From a virus, in IMG/VR virus record IMGVR_UViG_3300022208_000021, positions 1 to 32,333 of that record: DNA of 32,333 bases; one strand, given 5' to 3'. Below the pieces are notes generated by a model, which had not been told where the DNA came from, ran no database searches, and worked only from the letters and a program-made list of their open reading frames with translations. The position numbers and the translations under genes are program-made. Position 1 is the stretch's first letter, and every line of letters starts with the position of its first letter. This document shows positions 3,070-28,381 of the stretch, piece by piece.

Positions 3070-3546
3070 ATGGGGATGGTTTGGTTTGAGGATAGCAGAG
3101 GGCACAAATTTCATCTCCCGATTGTCGAAGATTCCATAAACACTCCAAACACGGCAATCCATATTGGCGAACTGAACATGGCCGGAATGATGTATAGCGG
3201 CAATGTTCAGGTAGCAATTCAGGGATACCCGACATTTACGTTCGCGTTTGAACTCCCTGGGAGGTCCGGATCTTGCATCCGCTGTGGACTCTGCTGCACC
3301 CATCCACCAGAAGATCCTCCAACGGTTTGCGCTTGGCCCCTCAACGAGGAATACGGCGTTCATGTTTGCCCTGAACTGATTATCGACCCCAGGAAAAACA
3401 GCCTCGGGAAATCAGGCAGGTGCAGTTGTGCGGCCCGTGGGAACCTCTTGGAACTATACAAGGGATGTGCGTTGTGGCCTCGCAATTTGGGAGACAAATA
3501 TCCTTGGTGCATGGGAACCTGCGGGTTCTCGTTCGTAGGAGAATAG
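3070..3546 (+). CDS. YkgJ-like cysteine-cluster protein with a beta-rich N-terminus
   Basis: This 158-residue protein has eleven cysteines, at 69, 72, 75, 76, 87, 100, 118, 120, 133, 147 and 151. C69-x2-C72-x2-C75-C76 is the opening signature of the YkgJ/UPF0153 zinc- or iron-sulphur-binding family; the later cysteines would complete the site. Residues 1-65 form a separate beta-rich section with hydrophobic strands and no cysteines. It starts directly after the TAG of the previous gene and its own TAG is followed directly by the TTG start of the next, so it is part of the same transcript. Metal-cluster proteins of this type are not usual virion parts. It could equally be a small modification enzyme. 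Metal type and reaction are unknown. Confidence 0.6.
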   Translation: MGMVWFEDSRGHKFHLPIVEDSINTPNTAIHIGELNMAGMMYSGNVQVAIQGYPTFTFAFELPGRSGSCIRCGLCCTHPPEDPPTVCAWPLNEEYGVHVCPELIIDPRKNSLGKSGRCSCAARGNLLELYKGCALWPRNLGDKYPWCMGTCGFSFVGE

Positions 3547-4272
3547 TTGGCAACACGATTTTATTTTGATCCCGATAATGCCCCAAGCGTAAGCCCCGCC
3601 TTCGGTGGGGGTGTCAGTTGGTGGGACGGCAATACGACGGGTATGGTGCGTCGGAAACTCAACATCACAAGGGGGGACAACAACTCCGTTACATTCGAGA
3701 AATCAGAAACAGATACGACGAAAGACCTGAAATACGGCATGATTCAGTTTGTATCCGAACCGGTGGAAGCGATCACATGGAGCCACAATGATGTAAGCGC
3801 GGCAGTTCGGCACATGGAAAGTGACGCCGGCGCGAATTACAAGATGTCGATAGTTCTCGCCTATTGTGATGAGGACGGGTCGAACGTCACATATATTGCT
3901 GATGGCGGATGTGAAGGTGAAAATGATTTCACTGCCCTTACAGAGATCCCATATTATATCAATACAATGGCAAGTGCTGCCGATGTCCCGTCCGGTAAGC
4001 GGCTCATCGTGGAACTGGGATTTAGAACACTAAATACGAAGTCCACCGAATATTTTTGTTATGAAAACATTACAGACAACCATGCCACGACAGACTTAGC
4101 CATTGAAGGATATGAAACAGCCGCCTACAACTCGTGGGTGGAGTTTTTTGAAACGATCACGGAGGCAACTGCCTCTGTCAATAAAACTCCGGGATCTGGA
4201 TCTGCAACAATAGGTGGAGTCCAGCCGGTACAGGGACTTGGGATTTTCGTCCCTACGGAAGTGGACGTTTAA
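3547..4272 (+). CDS. Hypothetical beta-rich phage protein
   Basis: I do not recognise a family for this 241-residue protein. The frame starts at TTG 3547, immediately after the previous stop, and reads ATRFYFDPDNAPSVSPAFGG. It continues with WWDGNTTGMVRRKL, a strand-rich core (KYGMIQFVSEPV, YKMSIVLAYCDEDGSNVTYI, KRLIVELGFRT) and a Gly/Ser/Thr-rich C-terminal segment (TPGSGSATIGGVQ) ending in VPTEVDV. Composition and alternating strands suggest a jelly-roll head or fibre section. No signal peptide, membrane span or catalytic motif is visible. It sits between the cysteine-cluster gene and the methyltransferase-DUF115 gene. A fibre or tail-decoration role is inferred from neighbourhood only. Confidence 0.7.
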   Translation: MATRFYFDPDNAPSVSPAFGGGVSWWDGNTTGMVRRKLNITRGDNNSVTFEKSETDTTKDLKYGMIQFVSEPVEAITWSHNDVSAAVRHMESDAGANYKMSIVLAYCDEDGSNVTYIADGGCEGENDFTALTEIPYYINTMASAADVPSGKRLIVELGFRTLNTKSTEYFCYENITDNHATTDLAIEGYETAAYNSWVEFFETITEATASVNKTPGSGSATIGGVQPVQGLGIFVPTEVDV

Positions 4273-4287
4273 CCGAAAGGGGGAGAT

Positions 4288-5700
4288 ATGAAAACGCACC
4301 ACAGTTTTTTCAAGGGGTATCCACCGGTCTTAAAGGTAGGGCAGGGCAATCCAGAAGCGTTGAAGTATGGGATGCTCTGGAAAACAACAGAGTACCGCAA
4401 ACATTCTCCGGGGGAGCATTTCATTCCGTACTTCGTGCAACAGATCCATCCACGGACGGGGGCTCATGTCATTGATTTTGGATGTGGCACAGGGAGAGCC
4501 GCTGCGAAGCTCAAGGATCTCGGGCTGAGGGTTACAATGCTGGATTTCGCAAGAAACTGCCTTGACGATAACGTGAGGGCAATGCTTGGGGAGGGATTTG
4601 AATTTATCAAGCACGACCTGAAGGACCGCATTCCCCTTGTAGCGGAGTACGGGTACTGCACGGACGTAATGGAGCATATCCCGCCAGAGGACGTAAATCT
4701 GGTGATAAACAACATCCTTCGTGCGGCAAAACATAACTTCTTTGCGATCAGCACAGCCCCAGACGATTACGGTTATCTTGTCGGTGGCCCATTGCACCTT
4801 ACAGTAAGCCCCTACGAGTGGTGGAAAGAGGTTTTCAGCAACTTCTCATGCGTTGTGCATTGGTCAGAGAAGATAGGATCCTACGCTTTCTTTTCCGTGT
4901 CTGCTTGGGAAGAAGCCCAGATCCTTGTGGAGCATGGGAAGCTCAATACGGCTGAAGAACTGATCCTACAGAATGTGGAGACAAACTGCCAGCAGGAGTA
5001 CCAGCTTTGCACTCCGCATCCCACAAACGATGTAGAGGTTATGATTGTGGGGTCCGGTCCATCCCTATCAGATTATGAGAATGAGATCCGGGAAAAGAGG
5101 GCAGACGGGGTAAAACTAATTACCCTTAACGGTTCATATAATTGGTGTCTGGAGAGGGGAATAAAACCATCTGGCACAGTAATCGTTGACGCAAGGGAAT
5201 TTAACAAGAGATTTGTTACTCCTGTTGTTGACGATTGCAAATACTTCCTCTCTTCCCAATGTCATCCATCTTTGTTTCAGGACATACCAAAGGGGCAGAT
5301 ATGGCTATGGCATTCCATGTCTGAGGTTACGGACAAGACAATCCGCAAGTATTACTCTGCTCCTTTTCCCATCCCCGGTGGCAGTACGGTGTTCCTCCGC
5401 ACCGTAGTTCTTCTTCGCCAGCTGGGTTTTCATAAGTTCCATGTTTTCGGATGCGATTCCTGCTTGACCAACGGGGAGCATCATGCGTTTTCTCAGCCAG
5501 AAAACGATGGGCAGATTGTTATCCCAATGATTATAGCAGGAAGAGTGTTCTACTGTCATCCGTGGATGGCTTCTCAAGCAAGGGAATTTATCACGCTTAT
5601 TCAACGTCTGGGGGAGACTTTCGACATGGTTCTATATGGGGACGGGCTTCTGTCCTACATCATTAAGACCGGGGCTGAATTGGCTCCGCAGGAGGACTGA
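4288..5700 (+). CDS. SAM-dependent methyltransferase fused to DUF115 (Maf/MptE-like) domain
   Basis: This 470-residue, two-domain protein has GGGGGAG just before ATG 4288. Residues about 58-170 carry the class I methyltransferase motif I DFGCGTG (63-69), an acidic motif II (TMLDFA, 83-88) and CTDVMEHIPPEDV (124-135), as in methyltransferase type 11/12 enzymes. Residues about 250-460 match DUF115: VMIVGSGPSL (251-260), TLNGSYNWCLERGIKP, VIVDARE and GGSTVFLRTVVLLRQLG followed by FHVFGCD. DUF115 includes archaeal MptE and the Maf flagellin glycosylation factors thought to move nonulosonic acid sugars. The fusion therefore suggests sugar transfer and methylation on a virion or host-surface glycan. 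Neither substrate is visible from sequence. A glycosyltransferase-like tail lies at the left edge. Confidence 0.8.
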   Translation: MKTHHSFFKGYPPVLKVGQGNPEALKYGMLWKTTEYRKHSPGEHFIPYFVQQIHPRTGAHVIDFGCGTGRAAAKLKDLGLRVTMLDFARNCLDDNVRAMLGEGFEFIKHDLKDRIPLVAEYGYCTDVMEHIPPEDVNLVINNILRAAKHNFFAISTAPDDYGYLVGGPLHLTVSPYEWWKEVFSNFSCVVHWSEKIGSYAFFSVSAWEEAQILVEHGKLNTAEELILQNVETNCQQEYQLCTPHPTNDVEVMIVGSGPSLSDYENEIREKRADGVKLITLNGSYNWCLERGIKPSGTVIVDAREFNKRFVTPVVDDCKYFLSSQCHPSLFQDIPKGQIWLWHSMSEVTDKTIRKYYSAPFPIPGGSTVFLRTVVLLRQLGFHKFHVFGCDSCLTNGEHHAFSQPENDGQIVIPMIIAGRVFYCHPWMASQAREFITLIQRLGETFDMVLYGDGLLSYIIKTGAELAPQED

Positions 5701-23900: not shown

Positions 23901-25778
23901 ACTGCAAGGGGTTGGAGTCCAGCGGAAGCCCAGCAGATAATTGACAGGATAAAGAAAGCCCCAGCTGGAGAATCAAGAAATAGGGTAATAGAGAGAGAGC
24001 TTACCAATACAGTTGTCCTTCAGAAAACGAGAACAATGGGAATAGATATGCCAGAGGGTCCACATCTTCTCTGGAGGGATTCACCTTACAAGCCAGCAGG
24101 AAATGTAATAGCGGTAATGGAAAAAGGGAAAGCGGAGTTCTACGAAGTACATCCAGATATATACAGAACATTCATGGCTCTTGACAAGGAAAGTGTTTCA
24201 ACCCTGATGAGGATCATGGGGGCTCCAACAAGAGTTCTACGGGCTGGGGCTACCCTGTCTTTTGAATTCATGGCAAGAAACCCAATACGGGACCAAATTA
24301 CAGCTTACGTTTTCAGCAAATACGGATACAAGCCGGGGATAGATTGGTTCCGTGGGATATACTCTGTGCTGAAAAGGGATGAGTATTACCAAATGTGGAA
24401 GATGTCTGGTGCAGAACAGGCTGCACTTGTTTCTATGGATCGACAGAAGCACATGACAACGCTTGAAGATATTTTAAGGGATACAAGACTCAAAAAGCTA
24501 TCTGGATGGAAAGAGGCAAGCAAGTACGCTATAAAGCATCCGCTTGATGCTCTTCGTGCGCTATCCGAGATAGGAGAAGAAGGCACAAGAGTTGGAGAAT
24601 TCCGAAAAGGATTAAAGGCTGAGGGTAGGACAAAAGCCGGTATTCAAAAAGCGGGACTCGCTTCCAGAGATGTTTCCTTGGACTTTAGAAGGATAGGCAT
24701 TACAGGAAGGTCTATGAACCAGCTTATAGCATTCTGGAATGCAAACGTACAAGGAATTGACAAAACATTCAGGGAGCTTAGGGATAACCCAACGGTAGTT
24801 CTTCCACGGATATTCGCAAGTATAACGCTACCAAGTGTTTTGCTTGCGATTGCAAACCAAGACGATAAAGAGATACGAAGATTGCCAGCTTGGGAAAAAT
24901 GGGTGTTTTACCATATTAGGGCTGGGAAGCATATATTGAGGCTACCGAAAGCACCTGTTTTGGGGACGATCTTTGGTACAATTCCACAGACAATCGTATG
25001 GTCTACCATGGATAATAAGAAAGCTGATTATGAAGAGATGACATCAGAAATACTAAAGGCAGTATCCCCCGGGTGGATGCCTACCGGCCTAAGCCCGTTT
25101 GTTGAGGCTATTGCCGGTAAAAGTTTATTCTTAGACCGCCCCCTTGTCCCTGCTGGGAAAAGAGGGGTGAGGAATGGATATCAGTATACCCCTTATACAA
25201 CAGAGGTTGCCAAGAAGCTTGGTGAGCTGATGGATGGCATACCGATTGTCGGAGATTCTATGTTAGCAAACCCTATAATGGTGGAAAACCTAATACAGTC
25301 ATGGACCGGGAATCTCGGGAAGTTAATACTTCAGACAGCAGATGAATCGTTAAAGCTTGCTGGGGTCTTTGGCGATCTCCCCCCGGAGCCAACAAAAACA
25401 TGGTCAGACATACCATTGGTCCGTGGATTTGTTTCCAGATATCCATCTTACGGGATGGAGCCCATAAACAAATTCTATGAAGATTACAACTCAGCACAGG
25501 AAACACTTGCAACAGTAAAGGCTCTGGTAAAAGAAGGAAGAATAAAACCAGCGAAAAAAATGTTGGTGGCTTCGGATATAGTGAAGATCGAAACGGTAAA
25601 AAAAGCTATTTCGACACAGAGAGAAGTTATACAGTTAATCAGATACAACCCAAATATGGACCCGGATAAGAAGAAGGAGCTGATTGATAAGCTGCTAATT
25701 TCGATGGCTATTTCTGCCGAAAGAGGGAATGAGCTTCTTGACAAAGTTAAGGCAAGGCTTAAGGCAGTAGGGAAATGA
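17970..25778 (+). CDS. Giant polyvalent / internal virion protein with HEIGH metallopeptidase motif
   Basis: This 2602-residue chain starts at ATG 17970 overlapping TGA. Residues 7-17 and 26-36 hold a duplicated T-Y-E-E-A-I-R-x-G-G-V motif. Residues about 520-600 and 640-680 are K/E/P/A-rich linkers. Near 1015-1170 lies a compact domain (VTDGHFALRAKK to GAIMPL). An acidic 9-residue triple repeat is at 1206-1232. HEIGHALNKH starts at H1551, with EGFAEF at 1593-1598, so H1551, E1552, H1555 and a glutamate of the second block could form a zinc site. From about 2095 to 2270 the sequence resembles large-polyvalent-protein domain LPD38 (FEFMARNPIRDQITAY, SRDVSLDFRRIG, NQLIAFWNANVQGIDKT). Such proteins are packaged and injected. 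Peptidase activity is plausible but unproven. It is longer than T7 gp16 (1318 residues). Confidence 0.8.
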   Translation: MSRKPMTYEEAIRAGGVLVEEDKPLTYEEAIRLGGVDVDEEGTKKPSLIERGLGLAKGYGERWRIAEEKRGKEFREGIARLRPVPEETPGVEPKPRYEGYRLDISPPEGISEEQNKFYLGWLDEKLTDPNLKGQEQKYVDYLTRIGYRDNEANFRKWYADQVAFLESKGQKLSPDPYAPEHEYDYKKAYEQRLTPQLTEHGDYRWPDIGKPPERLAREAGIKAFPDKMMEAYPLGEAMVGEPWEPELKPQAPSESPIGDVPMAMAPPSLQDLPWGSREEFVKGEIEQPAKNILRGAKESSRAFWHNVANIPMVIGKGISAGTVSGDVTILDRAATILSEKTGEKQPHALQKVEDFIRGFADLAAEAEPGLEVVDQFPDSDTLIDKLYQAIGQTPGVIGEYAVGSRLFGNVAGMAFVDALKEAGKEPLDVLIGAVRGATLGRALEGTHALKRLPRAGAMASLFGVPAAVETGDTKETAVAALTGAGLGAFGKPGHMDTRDVIRAGLEGIARRNVERKIEAIQTARAVQEMERKIRESKEKPKEAEAKPKEGIPTEKPKPSKPEKPTPEPKPTVPVPAVNESEIATIPEAEAALAAAKKRFDMVAGEYNAADAAGKRDLIDDWERAQKSIIAIEDRIAELKKGIPPAEQPKAPEEKPKAPAKPEAGWALPPVGEFLSTVKKNQETFRQSLNVTQPGVKALYDAARGYHREMVLRAIEGKTEIPWKVADDYFRWSKEDGWEYHNAGGIWMTVSKENARFLSESYPEISGKPVEPAKPEAPTVGAPVEAPTGKPGIEPGKGVVPGLPEGEAPPQTPSLENDFLIEGKGYKNWREFLDKDAYISDEHMGHKLYLSRPGGLTVIVGPDKSVMAGNPSVMEQAWGQFKEMPGMELNRGLWRERPEGVSPPQTPVSETVAEAVDASDYGGLTNPEMKKYLLENIDQAIKDQKMGISKGEMVEIHIPRDGDFKVYNNPEALKRYRDAVQKLFPTKSETGKLKPAGKVAAVSKGEKRPTGTIGAVTVAGDYVTDGHFALRAKKSQFKIRPSQRDADVFADRGRTITPEEVQKVIPKAKDIELVSKEEFLYRETDFLGGGEQEALGIADFPIALTGKDAINVVRLIDRKGNEAYIDQDYYSAVKNVYPDAEFGLSKKEPGNSAVAVLLPKEKEPIGAIMPLDPDTLGQLIKETREGKFPEIPKERVEEAKKRAEEAEEVPEEEYPEEVPEEEYPEEVPEEEYPPEEEIVGEAEPWQKSMKDYVEGEIENLRQTKAWKEAPNSYIRTLEESEKRKAEDRWLEATENAFIEGKDVPAENRPSWALTAKEWANRSGDTLDQSIIDSHRKMVKEAAKEGKPVPQKVIDDVYGKEEYGTDLDVIQNELDKMGDRKKILKTKLRNRYDVLQDLEKRLKENPKLTAEDAIIDYLAEVNKNEYLSLINKSNKRKAAIAVRDSLPALRKEAQEFAEGEAEEEVLESRGPRLRPEPGFKRTKEDVRETEVPTDEIYAGVTKRSDIIKLFQEKFDIPIRVGRMPKIKGLLGIYKVKIEAIRLKLANDIATAAHEIGHALNKHLWPTKGLNLSIRAFAPFADELRPLATMGHPMKEGFAEFLSKYVVDEADAKAKAPKFYAFFEEALAEKAPEVREILLEARKMYKLYEKQGPEAHFLSMMDYEGEGRIGVTFSKIYTHFVHDLYPMEKVVMEMAEGGKLPPDMDPHVLMRLFAGNEGRADVFMNYRPFKFGTYEFYGKSLREILDPVKDDVVLLEVYLMAKNAIRWNKKGLETGFDMGHARAIVEKYDSRFRKTHNEIINFQKAGLRYMLDAGVIDVKGYLRMRKAHRDYIPFFRVADYLNGKRGFKKGKGYEIQRSPLKYAFGGAGDYIPPLESIIKNTHLYINSAERNAIGRALVKLSQSKHGLGKYVEKIPADKRVAAAMGETELRSILAKYGKWVETEEYRTLHQTVRESIRDEAAGDTAQTMDSKIESKLLEALTARGWSPAEAQQIIDRIKKAPAGESRNRVIERELTNTVVLQKTRTMGIDMPEGPHLLWRDSPYKPAGNVIAVMEKGKAEFYEVHPDIYRTFMALDKESVSTLMRIMGAPTRVLRAGATLSFEFMARNPIRDQITAYVFSKYGYKPGIDWFRGIYSVLKRDEYYQMWKMSGAEQAALVSMDRQKHMTTLEDILRDTRLKKLSGWKEASKYAIKHPLDALRALSEIGEEGTRVGEFRKGLKAEGRTKAGIQKAGLASRDVSLDFRRIGITGRSMNQLIAFWNANVQGIDKTFRELRDNPTVVLPRIFASITLPSVLLAIANQDDKEIRRLPAWEKWVFYHIRAGKHILRLPKAPVLGTIFGTIPQTIVWSTMDNKKADYEEMTSEILKAVSPGWMPTGLSPFVEAIAGKSLFLDRPLVPAGKRGVRNGYQYTPYTTEVAKKLGELMDGIPIVGDSMLANPIMVENLIQSWTGNLGKLILQTADESLKLAGVFGDLPPEPTKTWSDIPLVRGFVSRYPSYGMEPINKFYEDYNSAQETLATVKALVKEGRIKPAKKMLVASDIVKIETVKKAISTQREVIQLIRYNPNMDPDKKKELIDKLLISMAISAERGNELLDKVKARLKAVGK
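17988..18077 (+). repeat. Duplicated TYEEAIRxGGV motif at the N-terminus of the giant protein
   Basis: Two 11-codon copies (17988-18020 and 18045-18077) sit 19 codons apart within the first 40 residues, both preceded by a lysine/proline step and followed by V and acidic residues. DNA differs at several third positions. A docking or packaging tag is possible but not shown. Confidence 0.7.
21585..21665 (+). repeat. Three perfect 27-bp tandem repeats coding for EEVPEEEYP
   Basis: Units at 21585-21611, 21612-21638 and 21639-21665 are identical in DNA as well as in protein. They add an acidic, proline-spaced linker between two parts of the giant protein. Perfect identity points to recent or unstable copy number, unlike the diverged repeats at 6205-8590. 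Confidence 0.9.
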
Positions 25779-26128
25779 GATCCGTCTACTTCTCAGCGAA
25801 AGAACTGGAATGCCCGTGCTGCGGGAAGTGCAATATGGATCCCCGGTTCCTTTCGGAGCTTGACAACCTTCGTGTAAAAGCTGGCATCCCTCTTGTCTTG
25901 AACAGCTCTTTCCGTTGCCCTGCACAAAATACTCTTGCAAAGGGAGTGCCGAATTCAGCCCATACCGTAGGAAAAGCTGTAGATATAAGGGCAAGATCCT
26001 CAAGGACAAGGCATATAATTCTCAAGGCTGCATACGGAATGAATTTCAAGAGAATCGGTATCGCAAAAGGATTTATTCACGTTGACACCGATGACTATCT
26101 ACCACAAGAGGTAACATGGACGTACTGA
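25775..26128 (+). CDS. Peptidase M15-type endolysin
   Basis: This 117-residue protein starts at ATG 25775 overlapping TGA of the giant gene. The M15 zinc site is clear: S-A-H63-T-V-G-K-A-V-D70 gives two ligands and G-F-I-H102-V-D104 the third with its partner acidic residue. NSSFRCPAQN before it is the usual substrate-loop strand. An extra CPCCGKC cluster at 13-19 is often seen in the short phage M15 proteins and may bind another metal. M15 enzymes cut peptide cross-links or stems of peptidoglycan. At 117 residues this is a minimal single-domain form with no cell-wall-binding domain. There is no signal peptide, so release would need a holin. It heads the lysis-like gene run. Confidence 0.85.
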   Translation: MRSVYFSAKELECPCCGKCNMDPRFLSELDNLRVKAGIPLVLNSSFRCPAQNTLAKGVPNSAHTVGKAVDIRARSSRTRHIILKAAYGMNFKRIGIAKGFIHVDTDDYLPQEVTWTY

Positions 26129-26271
26129 TGTGGGAGGAGGATATTGCAATTACGGTTTACTTCCAGCAAGAGCATGGATTGTACCGGAAACCGGCAAACC
26201 GGCAACAATAGAACAACTATGTGCAGTTTGTATGCACGAATTCGGCAGATGCCAGAAGGGAGATAGCAAAA
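26128..26271 (+). other. Ambiguous small-gene region, three overlapping frames
   Basis: No single gene is clear here. Frame A opens at ATG 26128 in a TGATG overlap with the endolysin stop and gives 27 residues (MWEEDIAITVYFQQEHGLYR onward) to TAG 26211. Frame B opens at GTG 26130 and runs to 26417, 95 residues, with ARAWIVPETGKPATIEQLCA and a C-x2-C-x6-C pattern, but overlaps the next gene by 146 bases. Frame C opens at TTG 26144, seven bases after GGAGGA, and gives about 41 residues ending near 26269. Frame A has the best coupling and frame B the most protein-like sequence. Confidence 0.35.
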
Positions 26272-26730
26272 ATGAGAAACCGGTCAAGGAGGCTAAACGT
26301 AGCGGTAATATTGTTCACATTCATCGTGGCGATATGCGTAGGGTCGATTGCTCTATCTGCAAGTCTGCATTGGACGAATCCAACAACCTATGCAGACGGG
26401 ACGAATATCCCGGATAGTGTAAAAGCCACCCTCACGGGGTATATCCGTATTAACAAGACAAATCCACGGGATACGACAGGAAAGAACGGTTGGTATTACG
26501 CAGGAGAAGCCAGAAACGGGGGAACTTCATGGCCCTCCGACAATGACATTGATGCGCTTCTCCGGTCATGGGGATTTGAAGGTCAGGAGATCCAGCTGAC
26601 GGTTTCCTCTGCATACAAGGCAAGTGATGGTCAGGAATACGATTCTGCTTTGTCGGAGGTGCTGGCCTACACCGTCCCTTTCGTGGTGAGGGGGGCGACA
26701 CAAGCCCCTACGGTGTTGGAGGTTCGTTAA
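26272..26730 (+). CDS. Signal-anchored protein with FN3-like domain
   Basis: This protein has 152 residues from ATG 26272, which has AAGGGAG at a good distance. An upstream start at 26221 would add sequence without a site. Basic MRNRSRR is followed by a hydrophobic segment (VAVILFTFIVAICVGSIALS, about 10-29), a signal anchor or cleavable signal. The rest is an Ig/FN3-like sandwich: LHWTNPTTYADGTNIPDSVK, GYIRINK, a loop with NGWYYAGEA, and EIQLTVSSAYKASDGQEYDS before ALSEVLAYTVPF. It resembles short phage or prophage FN3 proteins that open L-x-W-T-x-P-T-x-x-x-D-G-T. It should face the periplasm. A role in lysis control, exclusion or adhesion cannot be told from sequence. Confidence 0.75.
   Translation: MRNRSRRLNVAVILFTFIVAICVGSIALSASLHWTNPTTYADGTNIPDSVKATLTGYIRINKTNPRDTTGKNGWYYAGEARNGGTSWPSDNDIDALLRSWGFEGQEIQLTVSSAYKASDGQEYDSALSEVLAYTVPFVVRGATQAPTVLEVR
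26718..26722 (+). promoter_or_regulatory. GGAGG ribosome binding site deciding the ATT start at 26730
   Basis: GGAGG lies seven bases before ATT 26730 and within the last codons of the upstream gene. The only nearby canonical start is TTG 26731, which lies in a frame whose product does not look like a protein. Confidence 0.5.
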
Positions 26731-26861
26731 TTGCAGCCGTTCTTGCGCTCTTTGGGGCGATTCATTTTCTGTCAGCTGGTAACGTATGGCTGGGAATTGC
26801 CTTTCTTGCGGGGGCTGTCATTGCGATTGGCTTTGCCATCTACCTTAAAAGGAGGAAATGA
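26730..26861 (+). CDS. Two-span membrane micro-protein, probable ATT start (holin-like)
   Basis: A 43-residue frame, ATT 26730 to TGA 26861, reads IAAVLALFGAIHFLSAGNVW followed by LGIAFLAGAVIAIGFAIYLK and RRK. It has two hydrophobic helices split by a short NVW turn and a basic end. The codons are typical of the neighbours, so it is very likely translated. There is no ATG, GTG or TTG in frame before an upstream stop at 26625. GGAGG seven bases before ATT makes that the best start and gives a TAATT overlap. The alternative is a -1 frameshift from the upstream gene, in which a run of six G (26690-26695) lies, or a sequence error there. Size and hairpin topology fit a small holin. Confidence 0.6.
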   Translation: MAAVLALFGAIHFLSAGNVWLGIAFLAGAVIAIGFAIYLKRRK

Positions 26862-26864
26862 AAA

Positions 26865-27005
26865 ATGTCGCTACTGCTCGGAGCGTTTATCTTTTTGGCG
26901 GGGTTCGCTACGGGTGCATTCGTATTCCGAAACAACCCAATCACAGGGGAGCGGATAGCAAAGATGGTCGAGGAAAAGTTTGAGGAGCTAAAGGGAAAGC
27001 TATGA
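26865..27005 (+). CDS. Single-span membrane micro-protein
   Basis: This 46-residue protein has GGAGG nine bases before ATG 26865. MSLLLGAFIFLAGFATGAFV is a membrane span. A short amphipathic, charged tail follows (TGERIAKMVEEKFEELKGKL). Its TGA overlaps the next ATG (ATGA at 27002). It is too short to assign to a family. Position among lysis-like genes suggests a holin partner or other inner-membrane component. Codon use is like the neighbours and the frame is well marked at both ends. Confidence 0.75.
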   Translation: MSLLLGAFIFLAGFATGAFVFRNNPITGERIAKMVEEKFEELKGKL

Positions 27006-27286
27006 CCAACGTGCAAAAGATTATCGGCTTAGTCCTTGGGTTGGCTGCGCTTATAGGGCTATGCTTCCAGCTGGACCGGACATACGCAAAGGCTGAGGAA
27101 CTTGTAAAGGTTGCGAAACGGCTTGACCAAAAAATCATGGCAGACAAAGCATTTAACATCCGGGAAAGGATATACCAGCTGGAAAGGATGTACCCAAAGA
27201 ACCCCCCGGTTCAAGTGCAAAACGAGATCCGATACCTGAAACAAGAGCTAAGAGAGCTGGACGAAAAGATGCGGAGGACGCAATGA
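27002..27286 (+). CDS. Membrane-anchored coiled-coil protein
   Basis: This 94-residue protein starts at ATG 27002, in an ATGA overlap. One membrane span (KIIGLVLGLAALIGLCFQL, about 6-24) is followed by a long charged helix (AKAEELVKVAKRLDQKIMAD, then FNIRERIYQLERMYPKNPPV and QNEIRYLKQELRELDEKMRR). A heptad-like pattern is visible in the last 25 residues. The layout, a short N-terminal anchor and a helical tail, is that of an inner-membrane spanin subunit, but also of generic prophage coiled-coil proteins. Three genes in this cluster share it. No motif separates these options. Confidence 0.75.
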   Translation: MTNVQKIIGLVLGLAALIGLCFQLDRTYAKAEELVKVAKRLDQKIMADKAFNIRERIYQLERMYPKNPPVQVQNEIRYLKQELRELDEKMRRTQ

Positions 27287-27606
27287 CCGGAGAACTTCAG
27301 AACGTACTCTCTGCATACGCAGACCAAGGGCTTGCCTGTTTAACGGTTATCATGGTGCAGATCGTGAAGCTATATCTCCCGTCTGATCCTTCATCCTTGG
27401 ACAAGTACAGCGTGGATCCGAAGTATAAGAAGCACCTACTTTCCCTATCGTTTGTTGTCGGGATAGGGCTCTCTCTCCTGTTTGCCCCCAGCGAAGGCAA
27501 GAATGCGGTAATGCGGTTAAAGTCTGGGCTATACACCGGGGGGATGGCGGTAGTGGTCTGGGAAGCCTACTCTAATTGGGTACGTCCCTTCCTTGAGCGA
27601 AAATGA
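27283..27606 (+). CDS. Multi-span membrane protein, holin candidate
   Basis: This 107-residue protein has an ATGA overlap at 27283. Hydrophobic segments lie near residues 17-32 (ACLTVIMVQIVKLYLP), 52-68 (LLSLSFVVGIGLSLLFA) and 82-97 (GLYTGGMAVVVWEAYS). The C-terminus is short and basic (WVRPFLERK). Three weak spans in about 100 residues, a polar loop of charged residues between the first two and its position two genes after the endolysin make it the best holin candidate by topology, together with the ATT-start gene. No conserved holin motif can be named. Its TGA overlaps the next ATG. Confidence 0.65.
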   Translation: MTGELQNVLSAYADQGLACLTVIMVQIVKLYLPSDPSSLDKYSVDPKYKKHLLSLSFVVGIGLSLLFAPSEGKNAVMRLKSGLYTGGMAVVVWEAYSNWVRPFLERK

Positions 27607-27968
27607 ACTTACCGCCAAAGTCTGTCCTGAGTGTGGCAAACAGCTTGGTTTCACGGCTTGCTACAAATCCGATGCTTGTCCTTATAGTCCTAATAATCCT
27701 TCTGGCATTGGCATCTGGCATATCGGCAAAGATTACCAGAGATCGGATGCTGAAGAAAATGGAAGTCGAGATCCGAATGGAGAAGAAAGCCTTGGAGGAA
27801 AGGGAAAGGGAGCTGAGGAAGGACTACGAAAGAAGCCTAAAGAGCATACGAGCGGAAAGGGACCGGCTAAAGGGAAGGCTCGGGGAGCTGGAAGGGCTCA
27901 GGGAGGATCTAAAGCCCCCGGAAAGCGTAAATGAGCTGATTTCCCGTTTTCGGGCCTTGGGGTATTGA
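27603..27968 (+). CDS. Inner-membrane spanin-like protein (N-terminal span plus coiled coil)
   Basis: This 121-residue protein starts at ATG 27603 in ATGA. A strong membrane span occupies about 22-41 (NPMLVLIVLIILLALASGIS). It is followed by a long, highly charged coiled coil (KKMEVEIRMEKKALEERERE, LRKDYERSLKSIRAERDRLK, GRLGELEGLRED) and a short tail with a proline step (KPPESVNELISRFRAL). This is the layout of the lambda Rz type i-spanin, which bridges the periplasm to fuse membranes in Gram-negative lysis. It lacks an identified lipoprotein partner: a nested frame at 27593 has no lipobox. It could be an unrelated coiled-coil membrane protein. Confidence 0.65.
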   Translation: MNLPPKSVLSVANSLVSRLATNPMLVLIVLIILLALASGISAKITRDRMLKKMEVEIRMEKKALEERERELRKDYERSLKSIRAERDRLKGRLGELEGLREDLKPPESVNELISRFRALGY

Positions 27969-28381
27969 AAAAAACGCTCATATTTGCCCTGTACGGGGCG
28001 ATCTTGCTCTGCCTCAGCACTCCCCTACCCGCTGCGGAGCCGTTATCTGAGGGTCAGGCAGCTCCAGCAGCCGGGGTATTTTTCGATACCCTTACCTCTT
28101 ACCGGTTGCTTGATGAACTGGAGCAATGCCGTATAATCAAACAAGAGGCTTTCGTACTCCGGGAGCTGGACAAGACAAACGAAAGGATGGTGAAGGTTCT
28201 GGAGGAAAGAATCAAAATACTTGAGAAAAATCAAGCTGATCTGCTCAGGATGAACGAAGCTGCGTTGAAAAACGCAGAAGAAGCCAGAAAGGTTGCTGGC
28301 GGTAAGTGGTACGAAAAGCTTTGGGATACAGGAAAGTGGATTGGATTGGGTATTCTGGTCGGATTGGCAGCAGGAGGCTAA
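27965..28381 (+). CDS. Secreted coiled-coil protein with C-terminal hydrophobic tail
   Basis: This 138-residue protein has a TTG start at 27965 in an ATTGA overlap. A signal peptide is clear (KKTLIFALYGAILLCLSTPL, then PAA with likely cleavage before E25). ILLC does not satisfy the lipobox, so lipid attachment is not expected. Residues about 70-112 form a coiled coil (KVLEERIKILEKNQADLLRM, then NEAALKNAEEARKV). The last 15 residues are hydrophobic and glycine-rich (IGLGILVGLAAGG). This makes a periplasmic protein anchored or membrane-active at its end. It may pair with the i-spanin-like gene before it. A spanin role is inferred from place and topology only. Confidence 0.65.
   Translation: MKKTLIFALYGAILLCLSTPLPAAEPLSEGQAAPAAGVFFDTLTSYRLLDELEQCRIIKQEAFVLRELDKTNERMVKVLEERIKILEKNQADLLRMNEAALKNAEEARKVAGGKWYEKLWDTGKWIGLGILVGLAAGG

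Follow-up and report, generated by a model that had tools for sequence, protein, structure and literature searches.

A two-span membrane protein frame without an ordinary start codon

The 32,333-nucleotide IMG/VR virus record IMGVR_UViG_3300022208_000021, analyzed at its full length and referred to here as the window, contains a frame for a two-span membrane protein that lacks the usual start codons and adjoins an FN3-like secreted protein gene. This locus raises the question of how such a frame could be translated and whether the missing start is biology or damage to the sequence. The features of the junction are as follows.

26272 to 26730, plus strand: gene for the FN3-like secreted protein, assigned from a family alignment, chromosomal relatives, and a low-confidence beta model
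26718 to 26722, plus strand: Shine-Dalgarno (SD) sequence GGAGG, 7 nt before ATT (duplex, −10.0 kcal/mol)
26728 to 26732, plus strand: TAATT overlap, in which the A of the FN3 stop codon TAA (26728 to 26730) is common with ATT
26730 to 26861, plus strand: two-span membrane protein gene of 43 codons, product (M)AAVLALFGAIHFLSAGNVWLGIAFLAGAVIAIGFAIYLKRRK, assigned from codon score, a homologue in a distant phage, and hydropathy
26730 to 26732 and 26859 to 26861, plus strand: putative ATT start and TGA stop of the 43-codon gene

Rereading of the sequence showed that the frame opens at 26628, directly after an upstream TGA (26625 to 26627), that it encodes IAAVLALFGAIHFLSAGNVWLGIAFLAGAVIAIGFAIYLKRRK, and that it terminates at 26859 to 26861. 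The preliminary description had stated that no standard start follows this upstream stop, and this was confirmed: ATG, GTG, TTG, and CTG were all absent from the 34 codons scanned between 26628 and 26729, where one ATA was found at 26637. ATG, GTG, and TTG are absent as well from the 43-codon frame downstream of ATT 26730.

The codon score of the 43-codon frame is like that of real genes in the window, and a score as high was obtained for 2.3% of equal-length open stretches taken out of frame or antisense. A sliding codon score favored the FN3 frame up to the FN3 stop and the 43-codon frame beyond it. The gene-like score, the switch of frames at the FN3 stop, and the homologue described below uphold the earlier statement that the frame is protein-like. 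Its 3' end also doubles as the ribosome site of the next gene, as had been proposed, since it includes the AGGAGG that serves ATG 26865.

A distantly related phage carries the same gene in the same arrangement

Single-sequence queries with protein or DNA against phage records, plasmids, and IMG/VR returned nothing useful, and no near relative of the window was found in the collections searched. Relatives were reached through the conserved C-terminus of an LPD38 polyvalent protein, which led to L010, and through a downstream gene, which led to L095. In both of these contigs, the FN3-like secreted gene is followed directly by the counterpart of the one-span gene at window 26865, and the two-span gene is absent. 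A search with the syntenic FN3 gene reached L120 (IMGVR_UViG_3300031949_000168), an independent contig from a distantly related phage and the one relative that has the membrane gene. Relatives obtained through the M15 gene did not share the cassette. Three profile hits in bacterial genomes were rejected because they lie inside large unrelated open frames and because the two with readable ends, both C-terminal anchors, have only a YLRRRK/YLKRRK ending in common.

In L120, the FN3 gene (4001 to 4360) is followed by LIALLVAAVLGALALFATGHPWLAVLLLVVAGVAVVAWYLRRRKGQ in the same −1 relation. The two membrane proteins are ∼45% identical, with a local alignment score of 70 (the best of 5,000 shuffles scored 55). 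Substitutions between the window and L120 number 20, 11, and 20 at codon positions 1, 2, and 3, respectively, and the minimum at position 2 is what a conserved hydrophobic frame should show. The L120 membrane frame has no ATG, GTG, or TTG start, upstream in frame or otherwise, and its ATT and the FN3 stop again have one A in common, as TGATT. The start region reads GAA CTG ATT GCG in L120 and TCG TTA ATT GCA in the window, and ATT represents only 12% of the Ile codons in L120. The comparison of start codons suggested in the preliminary description thus found ATT, not ATG, kept at the same site in this one relative.

Because L120 repeats the layout, the absence of ATG, GTG, and TTG, and the ATT overlap, an isolated sequencing error or a dead gene is unlikely. 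Since the gene recurs at this position in a distant phage, again without a standard start, the oddity is probably real biology. A start lost by mutation of ATG to ATT, or by an error or indel of a single base near TAATTGCAG, would leave the gene dead or misassembled; ATT does differ from ATG by one base, and a one-base indel could bring TTG 26731 into frame. However, the L120 contig was obtained independently and has ATT at the same place without ATG, GTG, or TTG, and the 43-codon frame of the window is intact and gene-like in its codons, making a lost start improbable.

The FN3-like gene ends at its natural stop

The FN3-like product has a signal peptide, a beta domain, and a C-terminal VP..P.AP..L.V motif. 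Alignment across seven lineages showed TTYTDNTAI and a VP..P.AP..L.V-type ending before the stop to be common to the FN3-like proteins, and the FN3 frame is conserved up to the last residues in relatives. Chromosomal stand-alone FN3 proteins end alike, with VPTKSPSAPSNLQMN before the stop in L126 and VPAFTPSSPVNLRIQ before the stop in L127. Because both the relatives and these chromosomal proteins end with the motif found in the window, the FN3 stop is, as judged from the alignment, the natural and normal end of the gene. The AlphaFold model of the protein was of low confidence (pLDDT, 68), and none of its best PDB matches was significant; thus, "FN3" remains a likeness.

Of 395 bacterial genomes from a single phylum, 15 carried homologues of the phage FN3-like protein (L124 to L133); some of these stand alone, and others have a C-terminal membrane anchor. 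In the window, a second zinc-ribbon-like open reading frame (26130 to 26417) extends into the FN3 gene at its 5' end, and L120 has a similar one (3222 to 3680) that overlaps a different secreted-protein gene.

The preliminary description had also proposed a frameshift within the FN3 gene, at the following site.

26690 to 26695, plus strand: G6 run, earlier proposed slip site, not conserved

A −1 slip at this run, or a true extra G, would produce a single FN3-membrane fusion. The run is indeed present in the window, and codon scores past it do not separate the frames. However, L120 has no G6 and yet displays the same two-frame layout; the phasing (AGG GGG GCG) would allow single-tRNA slippage only; and both the relatives and the chromosomal proteins retain the FN3 frame past the run as far as its stop. 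The FN3 residues of the window after G6, GATQAPTVLEVR followed by the stop, fit the family ending. With the run absent in L120 and the window ending typical of its family, a slip or a missing base at G6 is both unneeded and unsupported. The proposal is largely refuted by L120, and we consider it highly improbable.

A conserved slippery heptamer upstream of the membrane frame

If a frameshift exists, a better candidate site, which the preliminary description did not mention, lies upstream of the G6 run.

26676 to 26682, plus strand: slippery heptamer C CCT TTC, canonical X XXY YYZ in the FN3 frame, identical in L120
26691 to 26709, plus strand: G+C-rich hairpin, candidate frameshift stimulator, 8 nt after the heptamer (z, −1.46; p, 0.08; not significant)

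Programmed −1 frameshifting at the heptamer would yield free FN3 protein together with a minority FN3-linker-membrane fusion. The heptamer is in the correct phase, and after a slip both tRNAs would re-pair (CCU to CCC and UUC to UUU). The −1 frame is open from the heptamer to the membrane stretch in the window and in L120, and the heptamer with its flanks (ACCGTCCCTTTC) is identical in the two. C CCT TTC/G occupies one FN3 column in five of the seven FN3 lineages, yet CCT is little used for Pro (about 9 to 21%), and C CCT TTZ occurs no more than once in the other genes scanned in each contig. Hairpins following the heptamer are of borderline strength in both phages (p, 0.095 in L120), and in the tails of the two FN3 genes, identical residues have identical codons in 7 of 10 cases; outside the tails, the count is 7 of 22 (p, 0.05). 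In addition, the chromosomal FN3 proteins L128 and L133 have an in-frame C-terminal TM segment and a basic tail.

Against a frameshift, the heptamer is also kept in L095, L115, and L117, three loci whose −1 frame runs into a stop within 20 codons. Of 566 comparable stretches, 62 were at least as identical in the −1 frame as the tail (7 of 14), and similarity in the +1 frame was about equal; therefore, conservation from the slip site to the zero-frame stop does not exceed what DNA similarity would produce, and selection on the −1 frame is not apparent. Because FN3 is exported, the two further spans of a fusion would leave KRRK on the outer side, contrary to the positive-inside rule. A frameshift at the heptamer would also leave the SD sequence and the stop/ATT overlap unexplained. 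Programmed frameshifting here is possible but unlikely. The elaboration in which the FN3-family heptamer would let a fraction of ribosomes shift, so that in some phages an added membrane hairpin would tether FN3 to the membrane and one gene would give soluble and anchored forms, is unlikely as well.

The FN3-family column with C CCT TTC/G was seen in the window and in L010, L095, L115, L117, L119, L120, and L121, and the heptamer is kept even when no membrane frame follows in −1. In L010 (7545 to 7760) and L121 (4252 to 4467), the −1 frame from the heptamer is open through the next one-span gene, past its ATG. A "QSPGC" sequence recurring in the −1 frame of FN3 relatives resembled selection but was set aside because the close pairs L095/L115 and L010/L121 differ nonsynonymously in that frame.

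Proposed stop-coupled initiation at ATT

The best reading of these sequences, which we favor with some reserve, is a stop-coupled start of a 43-amino-acid membrane hairpin at ATT, a very rare start codon. Ribosomes ending the FN3-like protein at TAA (26728 to 26730) would be held by the GGAGG just upstream and would reinitiate at the overlapping near-cognate ATT (26730 to 26732). Stop and start would overlap by one base, as in the common TAATG arrangement, with ATT replacing ATG. Discrimination by IF3 against ATT would result in low output tied to FN3 translation. The product would be a free-standing protein of two short hydrophobic spans, a tight turn, and a basic KRRK tail, forming a hairpin with both termini probably cytoplasmic.

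The GGAGG and the TAATT overlap had been pointed out previously, and the coordinates proved correct on rereading, with a well-suited spacer of 7 nt (TTCGTTA). Among random positions, 2.2% had anti-SD pairing at least equal to that in the 20 nt before ATT. The SD sequence of L120 is weak: its −5.7 kcal/mol is equaled at 33% of random positions, and with an extended anti-SD the values are −8.7 kcal/mol and 18%. Tight stop/start overlaps are usual in the window phage, and RNA structure around ATT 26730 was not stronger than that of shuffled sequences. The stop/ATT overlap is constant, while the slippery site and the stop lie 18 codons apart in the window and 15 in L120. The charges of the hairpin are confined to the tail (KRRK in one phage and RRRK in the other), which agrees with a free protein that has its two termini inside. 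Initiation at ATT would thus explain the SD sequence, the overlap that is constant despite a varying FN3 tail, and the lone positive tail. Counted against it are that the gene is known in two phages only, that L120 has a weak SD sequence and a CTG directly before ATT, and that both phages have a conserved heptamer upstream from which the −1 frame is open.

That CTG, or TTA or ATA in the window, might itself be an unusual start, or translation might begin in the wrong frame at TTG 26731 and shift later. CTGA in L120 would form a 4-nt overlap resembling ATGA, and a TTG follows the FN3 stop in both phages. However, TTA is not a start codon in table 11, and ATA 26637 is in a noncoding part of the frame, 31 codons upstream. 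The frame of TTG 26731 has a noncoding score and the substitution pattern of a shifted frame. We give these alternative starts very little weight.

Genomic neighborhood and possible function

Around the 43-codon gene lie genes for an M15 endolysin, the FN3-like secreted protein, and several small membrane proteins.

25775 to 26128, plus strand: M15 peptidase endolysin, upstream (Peptidase_M15_3, 4e-11; phrog_894 endolysin, 1.6e-26)
26865 to 27005, plus strand: 46-amino-acid single-span membrane protein with ATG and AGGAGG (phrog_3879, E 1.6e-5)

Relatives of the 46-amino-acid one-span gene were found in L010, L095, and L121, and the gene at 27283 has a weak holin-like match (PHROG holin, E 0.013). 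A small two-span protein close to an endolysin is what would be looked for in a holin or antiholin, and searches of Pfam and PHROGs gave no holin or lysis family match for the 43-amino-acid protein. The earlier designation as a lysis gene whose low expression would serve timing is based only on the position after the M15 endolysin. From that position, a part in lysis or in the envelope may be suspected; our guess would be a low-dose accessory protein for either, of the holin or antiholin type.

Farther downstream, two genes (27593 to 27934 and 27603 to 27968) overlap in different frames and encode a zinc-ribbon protein (C..CGK.LG...CY..DACPY, with a TTG start) and a spanin-like membrane coiled-coil protein. 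Both frames are conserved in L120 (5308 to 5694 and 5321 to 5677). A secreted coiled-coil protein (27965 to 28381) has a TTG start in a TTGA overlap, which suggests that weak starts occur elsewhere in the cassette of the window phage.

Comparison with known systems

Programmed −1 frameshifting cassettes include the phage tail chaperones G/GT, dnaX, and copA. Like these, the window has an in-phase X XXY YYZ heptamer, an open −1 frame, and a nearby hairpin, here of borderline strength; unlike these, it lacks dual-frame conservation, the heptamer is kept where the −1 frame is closed, and the topology of the fusion is unlikely. With the coupled overlaps of phage operons (TAATG and ATGA), the locus shares the one-base geometry and an SD sequence inside the upstream gene but has ATT rather than ATG. 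The protein is like class II holins and antiholins in its size, hairpin, basic tail, and nearby endolysin, although it matches no holin profile.

An AUU start is established for infC (PMC5472188), and Staphylococcus aureus cvfC1, which encodes 61 amino acids, has an AUU start with an extended SD sequence and about 10% of the output of AUG (PMC13009471). The window gene is without a standard start, as are infC (E. coli, AUU), cvfC1 (AUU), and ccpN (S. aureus, AUA), and like the first two it has AUU; it further has in common with the group a strong SD sequence at good spacing and a nonstandard start kept in a relative. In contrast to all three, it is a phage gene with two members, its start overlaps an upstream stop (TRATT), and the SD sequence is weak in the relative. 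In anatomy, it resembles the near-cognate-start genes, of which it would be a candidate member.

Gene finders limited to ATG, GTG, and TTG overlook the 43-codon gene in both phages. By either mechanism, ATT initiation or frameshifting, a small conserved phage protein would depend on nonstandard decoding. If initiation at ATT is right, the gene would join infC and a handful of bacterial genes as a further case of near-cognate start use, and its coupling to a stop would suit low, ratio-controlled expression.
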